A DNA stretch of 64,000 nucleotides, taken from contig RAZE01000022.1 of NCBI GenBank assembly GCA_003611955.1, positions 1 through 64,000 of the forward strand. The letters run 5' to 3'. Positions 150 to 50,989 of this stretch are shown one piece after another; position 1 is the stretch's first letter; each line of letters opens with the position of its first letter. The notes beneath the pieces were generated by a model. The model made no database searches, was not told the DNA's origin, and was given only the letters and a program-made list of their open reading frames with translations. The stretch comes from a bacterium 1XD8-76. GTDB lineage: Bacteria; Bacillota; Clostridia; Lachnospirales; Lachnospiraceae. Position numbers and translations under genes: made by a program.

Positions 150-186
150 GCACTTTTTTTACTAATTTCAGAATTTTCATTCTGAG

Positions 187-276
187 CGGAGAAGGAGGGA
201 TTTGAACCCTCGCGCCGCTATTAACGACCTGCACCCTTTCCAGGGGTGTCCCTTCGGCCAGCTTGGGTACTTCTCC
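187..276 (-). tRNA. tRNA-Ser (anticodon GGA)
   Basis: The reverse complement folds as a 90-nt class II tRNA. A GGAGAAG/CTTCTCC acceptor stem carries discriminator G, the anticodon loop is CTGGAAA with anticodon GGA, a long variable arm is present, and the T-arm contains GGTTCAAATCC. It should decode UCC and UCU. No CCA is encoded. It lies 58 bases downstream of the tRNA-Ser(UGA) gene and is likely co-transcribed with it. Confidence 0.96.
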
Positions 277-334
277 AAGTGTAGCAGAATTATTTTCTAC
301 TATATTAAATTGAATAGTTTGGAGTTATCTCCAG

Positions 335-420
335 CGGAGAGGATGGGATTCGAACCCATGCGCCCTTTCGGACAAACGGTTTTCAAGACCGCCTCGTTAT
401 GACCACTTCGATACCTCTCC
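335..420 (-). tRNA. tRNA-Ser (anticodon UGA)
   Basis: The reverse complement gives an 86-nt class II tRNA. The GGAGAGG/CCTCTCC acceptor stem, the CTTGAAA anticodon loop with anticodon TGA, a long variable arm and a GGTTCGAATCC T-arm are all visible. It should decode UCA and, by wobble, other UCN codons. CCA is not encoded. It is the first gene after a strong promoter at 453-481. Confidence 0.96.
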
Positions 421-7044: not shown

Positions 7045-7110
7045 AACGCTGCAAAATTATCATCCGACACCGCGCTCTCCGCGCGATACCAGACCTCTCT
7101 CTTTTACAGT

Positions 7111-7254
7111 TTCTTCTTTCATCCAGACTTTACTGTCGGTTTTGGATTCTCACCAAATCAGCCATTTGCATGGGTCGTAGACTCACCGCCGTTCCGCAGT
7201 CTCTTTGCGGAAAGCGTATCACTACCGGTAGGGAATTGCACCCAACCCCGAAGA
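7111..7254 (-). promoter_or_regulatory. FMN riboswitch (RFN element)
   Basis: The minus strand carries the conserved blocks of the RFN aptamer in order: TCTTCGGGGTTGGGTG, AATTCCCTACCGG, a variable arm, GGCGGTGAGTCTACGACC, GATTTGGTGAGAATCC, CCGACAGTAAAGTCTGGATG and a closing GAAAGAAGA that pairs with the start. It should bind FMN and control ribU through the terminator at 7014-7044. The variable arm between 7178 and 7222 forms its own stem. Confidence 0.96.
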
Positions 7255-7279
7255 ACTTTTTTATATGGTTTACGTTGAT

Positions 7280-49691: not shown

Positions 49692-50009
49692 TTATTTCTG
49701 TTTCATTTTGATATCAATATACACGCCGGCCGGCATTTCCAATCTCTGCAGCGCATCGATGGTCTTGGGCGTCGGTGCAATGATGTCGATCAGTCTCTTG
49801 TGAGTTCTCTGCTCAAACTGTTCTCTGGAATCTTTGTACTTGTGAACCGCTCTTATGATAGTAACAACCTCTTTCTTAGTAGGAAGGGGTACCGGTCCGC
49901 TCACCTGAGAACCATTCTTCTTGACTGTTTCGATGATTTTTTTGGCAGACGCATCAATCAGCTGATGGTCATAAGCTTTTAATGTAATTCTCATTACCTG
50001 ACTTGCCAT
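49692..50009 (-). CDS. rpsJ: 30S ribosomal protein S10
   Basis: S10 (NusE) is in the 30S head and also joins transcription antitermination complexes. [70 protein letters not shown] is the family core in 105 residues. AAAAGGAGG lies before the ATG. It is the first gene of the superoperon. Confidence 0.98.
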
Positions 50010-50325
50010 AAAAAAAGTCGCCTCCTTTTCGCACTTTATTATTTAAGTACGACAAGCGGTGACTGTACACTCTTCCGTGTGTGTCCAACGCCCGGATACC
50101 CGGCGTGCCTTTTCACAGTATTCTGTGAAGTACCTGTTCTCACACGTCTCTGCCTCTCCTTTAAAATAAGTCCTTGCAGAATATTCTACGTTTGTACAGT
50201 GACTTGTCGTCAGTTTCCTTACCGGAGATCTCTGATCTTCCGGTTTGACATTCGCTCCACGGAAAACCTGTCAGTAGTTACCCGCTGACAGCAACCTCAC
50301 GCTTCATCGCTATCATGCCACAGCA
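50010..50325 (-). ncRNA. structured leader of the S10 superoperon
   Basis: The leader between the promoter and rpsJ is about 310 nt. Three local hairpins lie within it: CTGTCAG/CTGACAG (50268-50274 with 50285-50291), ACCGGA/TCCGGT plus GATC/GATC (50221-50244), and TTCACAG/CTGTGAA (50112-50129). A long-range closing stem also exists: 50049-50056 pairs with 50203-50210 (8 bp) and 50062-50068 with 50194-50200 (7 bp). No intrinsic terminator is seen. The fold suggests a cis-regulatory RNA, possibly bound by a ribosomal protein. Confidence 0.5.
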
Positions 50326-50331
50326 ACAGCT

Positions 50332-50360
50332 ATTGTACTATAGAAAATTCGAGAATGCAA
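50332..50360 (-). promoter_or_regulatory. sigma-A promoter of the S10 superoperon
   Basis: TTGCAT (50355-50360) and TACAAT (50332-50337) are separated by 17 bases on the minus strand. It is the only strong promoter between the hemerythrin gene and rpsJ. It probably drives all genes down to rplQ. Confidence 0.8.
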
Positions 50361-50394: not shown

Positions 50395-50817
50395 TTACAG
50401 GCGGTTTGGATTATTTACGTAGTTTATATACTCCGCCACGGAGCGATCGAAGCCTTCAATATGTTTGAAGAGCCAGTCCACCACCTGCTCCTTTACCTGT
50501 TCCACAAAGTCTTCCGTAGGTCCCTCGGATTCCTCCAGAAATTCATGCAGCGCATCTACCGTCTTTTTAAATTCCTCATGTTTCCCCCTGTGCTCCGCAT
50601 ATCCCGGGTAGGATACCTCCTGCTGGAGTTTTTCCTCCTCTGTAAAGTGAAACTCCGTGTACTCCGCAAGGTAATCCAGCATTTTGATGGCTTTCATCTT
50701 GCCGTCCCCCTCCTCACAGGCGTTCACGAGCGCTGCGATCCGCTCAATCAGTTCTCTGTGCTGGGCGTCTATCGTTTTATTGCCGGTCAATAAGTTGTCG
50801 CTGAATTCTATGATCAT
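50395..50817 (-). CDS. bacteriohemerythrin
   Basis: The 140-residue four-helix protein binds oxygen at a di-iron site. The iron ligands appear as DAQHRELIERI, TEFHFTEEEKLQQEVSYPGYAEHRGKHEEF and WLFKHIEGFD. In anaerobes such proteins may sense or scavenge oxygen. The ATG at 50817 has AAGGAAGGGG upstream; a longer frame to 50979 runs through the promoter and is not coding. It is divergent from ptb-buk. Confidence 0.93.
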   Translation of the reverse strand: MIIEFSDNLLTGNKTIDAQHRELIERIAALVNACEEGDGKMKAIKMLDYLAEYTEFHFTEEEKLQQEVSYPGYAEHRGKHEEFKKTVDALHEFLEESEGPTEDFVEQVKEQVVDWLFKHIEGFDRSVAEYINYVNNPNRL

Positions 50818-50860
50818 AACTTCCCCTTCCTTATATGATATACAATATTTTCTGTCCTTT

Positions 50861-50889
50861 ATCTTACCACCAATCGGCGGTTTTGTTAA
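50861..50889 (-). promoter_or_regulatory. sigma-A promoter of the hemerythrin gene
   Basis: TTAACA (50884-50889) and TAAGAT (50861-50866) are 17 bases apart on the minus strand. The leader to the ATG is about 37 nt. Confidence 0.65.
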
Positions 50890-50960
50890 TCCGTTTTTCC
50901 AACTTTTTAGCCCAACAGCTCCCGAATGTGACTTTCCCCGGCAAATTAGCTGTAAACGCC

Positions 50961-50989
50961 TTGATTTTTGTGCGTTCAAGTGATACTAT
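50961..50989 (+). promoter_or_regulatory. sigma-A promoter of ptb-buk
   Basis: TTGATT (50961-50966) and TACTAT (50984-50989) are 17 bases apart. The start would be near 50996, about 60 bases before the ptb ATG. It is back to back with the hemerythrin promoter. Confidence 0.65.

Follow-up and report, generated by a model that had tools for sequence, protein, structure and literature searches.

How might expression of the operon headed by rpsJ be controlled in a bacterium of the family Lachnospiraceae? The question is raised by a long leader found in the window, that is, in the whole stretch of 64,000 nucleotides that was analysed, and it bears on a general matter: in the literature searched, as far as the available parts of its articles go, control of the S10 operon outside the gamma-proteobacteria is predicted, not worked out. 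The gene of ribosomal protein S10, rpsJ, identified by its translation, lies on the minus strand (49692-50009) and is the first of its cluster; the genes that follow, named from their translations, are those of L3, L4, L23 and L2. The leader occupies, on the same strand, the space between the promoter and rpsJ. That promoter (50332-50360, minus strand; -35 TTGCAT at 50360-50355, -10 TACAAT at 50337-50332, spacer of 17) is absent from the list of the automated scan and was read by eye in the sequence; from the position of its two boxes transcription would be expected to start at about 50325, in agreement with the start proposed in the earlier note on this DNA. Upstream, and likewise on the minus strand, the leader has for neighbour a gene at 50395-50979, whose product we take to be a bacteriohemerythrin-like protein.

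The best explanation that we can offer, and one that we hold to be rather probable, is that of an S10 leader which belongs to class RF03136 and in which three strands make up an expression switch. The class is already known and the long-range stem that sets up the switch is real, while the output switch beyond the Rfam model is found in no paper searched. It is therefore convenient to begin with the class, then to consider in turn the two pairings that compete for one strand.

The S10-Clostridia leader and its boundary

The earlier note knew of no established equivalent of this leader in the lineage, and this has to be corrected. The comparison with Rfam ribosomal leaders that it recommended yields a match: the 5' 112 nt of the leader (50204-50315, minus strand), comprising helices P1, P2 and P3, correspond to the S10-Clostridia leader core, RF03136, over the full model (positions 1-81), at 70.8 bits for a gathering score of 35.1, and are a member of the class by score and position. 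The same RNA is present in 183 of 200 sampled genomes of the family and in 7/9 genomes of the window's genus; among 14 control genomes it is found in B. subtilis and L. lactis. Its place is constant, as rpsJ follows in 82/83 loci, the remaining one being cut by a contig end, and the window's own locus likewise precedes rpsJ, where the S10 operon begins. Three leaders of the family (L056, L069 and L076) have neither the RF03136 match nor the switch. The Firmicutes S10 leader is credited to Yao et al. 2007, and numerous examples from Clostridia were added by Eckert and Weinberg 2020, according to the sections available of the latter article (PMC7247131).

What the window leader has in common with the class is its first 112 nt; the switch half lies beyond. 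The 81 positions of the model stop at GACAA, within the strand A1 described below; the larger part of A1 is left outside, and so are the whole of A2, the closed stem and the U7 tract, about 190 nt of leader altogether. Judged from the conserved strands, the model appears to end too early. Its drawing of P3 may also call for a second look. Indeed, the outer pairs UGUC:GACA of that helix can form in the window sequence, and a tree-based test finds for them no joint changes beyond chance (1495/2000 null draws), while a shifted register, GUCA(A)GUU:AACUGRC, which frees A1, has joint changes in excess (26/2000 in the same test, a figure to be weighed against the seven helices or pairs that the test took in). 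The RF03136 structure may need revision, P3 being possibly drawn in the wrong register.

The long-range stem A1:A2

The 5' half of the stem, strand A1 (50194-50210, minus strand), reads ACGACAAG-UC-ACUGUAC; its partner, strand A2 (50049-50068, minus strand), reads GUACAGU-CACCG-CUUGUCGU and is common to both states of the proposed switch. On the minus strand ACGACAAG (50210-50203) is exactly complementary to CUUGUCGU (50056-50049), as is ACUGUAC (50200-50194) to GUACAGU (50068-50062), which makes a stem of 15 pairs enclosing about 160 nt. Folding of 50215-50040 (176 nt) gives -54.8 kcal/mol and a z of -4.17, with A1:A2 as the outer helix; the longer stretch 50345-49990 has a z of -4.15 with A1:A2 absent from its minimum-energy structure, and a stretch beginning at A1 includes the stem in its minimum-energy structure. 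The earlier note is thus borne out in that the S10-operon leader is structured and that its long-range stem is conserved and lies at the coordinates given. The three strong local hairpins that had also been claimed fare less well: those between A1 and A2 exist, but the insert that carries them is not conserved: over 256 leaders its length varies between 39 and 188 nt, with a median of 72.5, and it resists alignment.

Leaders were extracted from 288 loci, later 314 after divergent leaders had been added. Blocks recurrent in the family are GRCGACAAGUCACUGUAC (A1), GUACAGUCACCRCUUGUCGUACU (A2) and AGUGCGAAAAGGAGGCGACUUUUUUUAUG, and the A1:A2 stem is nearly invariant among relatives. The A2 pattern with at most two mismatches is found in 172/295 genomes of the order, a part of which is due to chance, since the backwards pattern, used as a control, appears in about 32 genomes by hand count of the listing; with at most one mismatch it is found in 16/19 genomes inside the order and in 0/372 genomes of the class outside it. 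One genome of the order (G462, family f11), with 16 matches in total, has at least 12 copies of GGACAGTCCCCGCTTGTCG, two mismatches away from the A2 pattern and scattered over its contigs, probably an unrelated repeat.

A stem that hardly varies offers little purchase to covariation, and the test that the earlier note had called for gave accordingly a divided answer. Conservation is extreme and tests using divergent leaders back the stem, on the tree for its outer half only; the strict per-column tree-aware test finds no pair with E < 0.05, the best value being 0.13, in P3, because 62/90 columns change fewer than five times. Without any imposed structure, RNAalifold recovered 13/14 tested A1:A2 pairs from 28 leaders aligned with MAFFT, with a covariation term of only -0.39 and a local hairpin predicted at the Shine-Dalgarno. 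This alignment was hand-picked from the 314 leaders: 34 were listed, of which six (L061, L065, L124, L197, L268 and L271) were removed by hand, some as wrongly cut stretches and some for thinning. On it 95.6% of A1:A2 cells are paired, four pairs have double changes, and the pairing or the covariation score is reached by 0/500 shuffles, which ignore relatedness.

Permutation of partners goes in the same direction. A1:A2 is supported in the first such test (0/200), and over distinct strands, with anchors set independently of any pairing, the native stem beats all permutations (0/2000), even though four A1 strands seem mis-placed (L257, L284, L290 and L319) and count against it; in these later permutation tests divergent leaders were added and each distinct strand was given one row. 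On the tree, joint changes are in excess in the outer half of the stem (13/2000, to be weighed, again, with seven helices or pairs in the test) and not significant in its inner half (227/2000); some of the controls slid by -1 in this test coincide with their own column and are meaningless. Rows were dropped for low block scores, for a missing Shine-Dalgarno or U-tract or for a contig cut: 31/288 in the per-column covariation, 33/314 in the distinct-strand permutation and 38/314 in the joint-change test. As leaders without a U-tract were among them, the distinct-strand permutation and the count of abutting stems given below cover only leaders with one. Examples of native partners are ACUGCAC:GUGCAGU in L085 and, in L280, CGAGAUG:CUUCUCG, where one position is mismatched. 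Comparative support is good, and points to selection that preserves the pairing of A1 with A2.

A probable second pairing, of A2 with the Shine-Dalgarno strand

The same A2 strand has a second partner. Its segment 50064-50054, AGUCACCGCUU, is complementary to the Shine-Dalgarno strand AAGGAGGCGACU (50016-50027, minus strand; GGAGG at 50025-50021), with two mismatches, A50060/C50020 and G50057/A50023. Inside this closed state CGUACU (50051-50046) can pair with AGUGCG (50035-50030), forming an inner hairpin (50030-50051, minus strand) in which 95.2% of cells are paired and joint changes on the tree are not in excess (1421/2000); it uses C50051, G50050 and U50049, which the A1:A2 stem also uses. 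A2 being common to both, A1:A2 and A2:Shine-Dalgarno are mutually exclusive, and in the window they are within 1 kcal/mol of each other (-67.1 kcal/mol for the open state, A1:A2, and -66.3 kcal/mol for the closed one). As read from the sequences, the leader thus appears to hold what defines a mutually exclusive switch: two conserved pairings with one strand in common.

For the closed stem comparative support is fair, weaker than for A1:A2. Over 147 distinct rows, 98.4% of its basal cells and 98.6% of its Shine-Dalgarno cells are paired. In divergent lineages the two strands change together (L280, where one pair is lost on both sides; L297; L321), and in the partner permutation over distinct strands native pairing is better in 22/27 cases, a result reached by 13/2000 permutations. 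The first partner permutation had left the pairing unsupported, with 158/200 as good or better; on the 28-leader alignment the stem has no double change, and in its basal part joint changes on the tree are not significant (198/2000). In the leaders L278/L301 (re-coded by eye) and in the L092, L316 and L320 groups, the native pairing is no better than swapped partners. A singular position is the central mismatch A2-9/SD-16, mostly A.C, A.G or G.A and paired in 2.7% of cases. Its two sides change together on seven branches, hardly ever so as to make a pair (0/2000 null draws), as if it were kept unpaired because the stem must not grow too strong.

The closed hairpin alone is worth -19.2 kcal/mol despite its two mismatches, and it abuts a U7 tract (50010-50016, minus strand) directly before the AUG of rpsJ. 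An intrinsic terminator is recognized by a stable stem with a U run immediately after it, and the earlier statement that none can be seen has to be given up; its companion, that control could act on translation or elongation, is plausible. The terminator scan accepted loops of 3-8 nt only, and the closed hairpin was not listed. A stem of at least 4 bp abuts the U run in 273/281 leaders, or 14/17 by distinct sequence; the latter count is reached by 7/2000 permutations and the mean stem length by 100/2000. By the same rule no stem abuts the U run in L294/L318/L322, in the L295/L321/L323 group and in L298.

The U-tract goes with A2. When leaders are classed by their A2 score alone, at least six U among the seven positions before the AUG are found in 261/262 leaders scoring at least 25 (243 of them with seven U), in 11/13 scoring 19-24 and in 9/38 scoring below 19, these last nine including leaders in which a diverged A2 can be seen by eye (L290, L297, L302 and L323). 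An earlier tally, partly circular as its criterion included the U-tract, gave 243 leaders with seven U and 15 with six among 258 with A2, and at least six U in 2/29 without A2; under that same, partly circular criterion, the distance from GGAGG to AUG is 11 nt in 237/258 leaders with A2 and 5-10 nt in 24/29 without. The U-tract being coupled to A2, an intrinsic terminator with the Shine-Dalgarno inside its stem is plausible.

A candidate switch and its alternatives

We can now put these elements together. Pairing of A1 with A2 would leave the Shine-Dalgarno outside any strong stem, so that rpsJ and its operon would be ON. Were A1 unavailable, A2 would pair with AAGGAGGnGACU and the Shine-Dalgarno would be buried in the hairpin that ends in U7, turning the operon OFF through blocked initiation, intrinsic termination, or both. 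A ribosomal protein bound to the core, and perhaps also to the hairpin H4 considered below, would keep A1 from A2, and the outcome would be negative feedback. By analogy with E. coli the ligand would most likely be L4; we infer both its identity and the direction of control. The obvious route would be for the core to capture A1 through UGUC:GACA, yet these are pairs without covariation support.

Computed folds are consistent with part of this scheme. With nothing masked, A1:A2 is dominant in 246/269 leaders, the window itself being a mixture; with A1 masked, A2 pairs with the Shine-Dalgarno in 240/269 leaders, against 49/269 with a control mask. Masking A1 shifting A2 onto the Shine-Dalgarno, whatever hides A1 should turn rpsJ off. 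The openness of the Shine-Dalgarno itself is unchanged in these folds (median unpaired 0.28 unmasked versus 0.32 masked, 269 leaders), and we hold the switch reading slightly less firmly on this account. In unmasked folds it is more than half open in only 53/269 leaders, being held partly paired by a local hairpin of low stability, AAAAGGAG:CUUUUUUU (-4.7 kcal/mol), which a ribosome would presumably melt, as it would not the strong closed one.

It is tempting to go further, and to see in the closed hairpin a terminator and a lock on the ribosome site for the order as a whole, with the U-run as spacer, one and the same ribosomal protein signal ending transcripts and blocking initiation, and the stem held near its tipping point by the mismatch kept unpaired. 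We regard this extended version as a tentative one, with somewhat less than an even chance of being right. A comparable chance, appreciable while short of even, must be granted to a simpler mechanism that acts on translation only, where the closed state hides the Shine-Dalgarno, no termination takes place, and the U-tract serves the AAAAGGAG:CUUUUUUU hairpin or the 11-nt spacing to the AUG. A stem with two internal mismatches is indeed weak for a terminator, the two runs beside the Shine-Dalgarno, one of A and one of U, are conserved, and the local hairpin is predicted by RNAalifold; it is, however, with A2 that the U-tract goes, and variants of the U-run such as UAUUUUU are unmatched in the A-run (-1.0 kcal/mol). 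Two positions of the Shine-Dalgarno strand point the same way: SD-18 varies almost only from A to G, as would suit a U-A or U.G pair with A2, and joint changes link SD-16 to A2-9, a position outside the local hairpin.

Two other readings would dispense with the switch or with its feedback. A1:A2 might be a mere scaffold on which a protein finds H4 and the insert displayed, A2 and the Shine-Dalgarno pairing only incidentally; the dominance of A1:A2 in unmasked folds (246/269 leaders), the retention of H4 in L069 and L076, which lack the RF03136 match, and the failure of the closed stem in the first permutation and in the 28-leader count would all agree with it. We nevertheless think it unlikely, as A2 and the Shine-Dalgarno strand evolve jointly and the U-tract is coupled to A2, while the insert to be presented is not conserved and H4 is absent in 94/314 leaders. 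That the leader should answer to a signal foreign to the operon, whether an elongation or termination factor, transcript stability or temperature, seems to us quite improbable: some RNAs of the r-leader type possibly bind no ribosomal protein, but the protein that an r-leader binds is usually encoded in the same operon (Eckert and Weinberg, PMC7247131, for both points in the sections available), and rpsJ follows 82/83 RF03136 loci, the last one being interrupted where its contig ends.

The three-strand switch that we prefer has precedents for its parts. The E. coli S10 leader is bound by uL4, and L4 acts there both on transcription, by termination in the leader, and on translation; it stands at the head of the same operon and its action resembles that proposed here, a likeness of working that need not extend to the RNA itself. 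Unlike the E. coli leader, that of the window has a terminator-like stem that holds the Shine-Dalgarno, and a U run that abuts the AUG (these comparisons resting on the portion of PMC10931766 at hand). For C. difficile, a heat-stress study presents data which, in the text available, lend no support to the L4 model of E. coli (PMC3933415). In the Peptostreptococcaceae the rpsJ motif RLC-47-1, first found in Clostridioides difficile, is another candidate ribosomal leader that precedes rpsJ; it differs in belonging to three genera of another family, as far as one can compare by the description in the accessible part of the article (PMC11109978). Terminators of rimP leaders are so near the gene start that the ribosome-binding site may be included (PMC2965389, from its available text), a precedent for a terminator over a ribosome-binding site, although for another gene and sequence, and for a general motif without visible antiterminator. 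In the literature searched, which takes in neither the article by Yao et al. (2007) nor the supplement to PMC7247131, no description of the A1/A2/U7 switch was found; part of it may already have been drawn there. Conservation across a large order exposes here what is most likely the leader's output half, with exact strands named for mutation, and this could be a candidate case of a single hairpin controlling both transcription and translation.

There remains the hairpin H4, ACAC[ACGGAAGA]GUGU (50067-50082, minus strand, read from the sequence), which has two bases in common with A2 (50068-50067) and is incompatible with the pairing CGUGUG (50146-50141):CACACG (50081-50076). An element of the H4 type (ACAC[ACGG..]GUGU) is present in 220/314 leaders and absent in 94/314 by the same criterion. 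L069 and L076 retain the hairpin, as ACACCCGGAAGCGUGU, upstream of the Shine-Dalgarno despite having no RF03136 match; H4 being kept in such leaders, it may be a second protein site, and in these two a minimal ribosomal protein site. In leaders of Paenibacillus and Cohnella (L103, L104, L106, L109 and L110) an element ACACACCCGG is located inside the 5' hairpin, not downstream, and is followed by CCCCUUUGCCAU; it is seemingly the same element shifted within the leader, and L103 has no RF03136 match at the gathering score. Mimicry of rRNA by H4 was considered and rejected: E. coli 23S rRNA has ACACACGG at 943 and ACCCGG...GCCATGGG from 677, which resemble H4 as found in some leaders, but 14/200 shuffles attain the same local score, 12; the stretch at 943 is not known to be kept in other bacteria.

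A few observations may be added on the surroundings. The covariance-model search of the window detects an FMN riboswitch at 7107-7259 (minus strand, 101.7 bits), and two tRNA-Ser genes (GGA and TGA) are found at the start of the window (186-420, minus strand). At the start of rpsJ itself (49998-50009, minus strand) and in its relatives, where S10 begins with MAS, the serine codon is AGU in 121/124 leaders with A2, and AAGUC is complementary to the GACUU of the Shine-Dalgarno strand.
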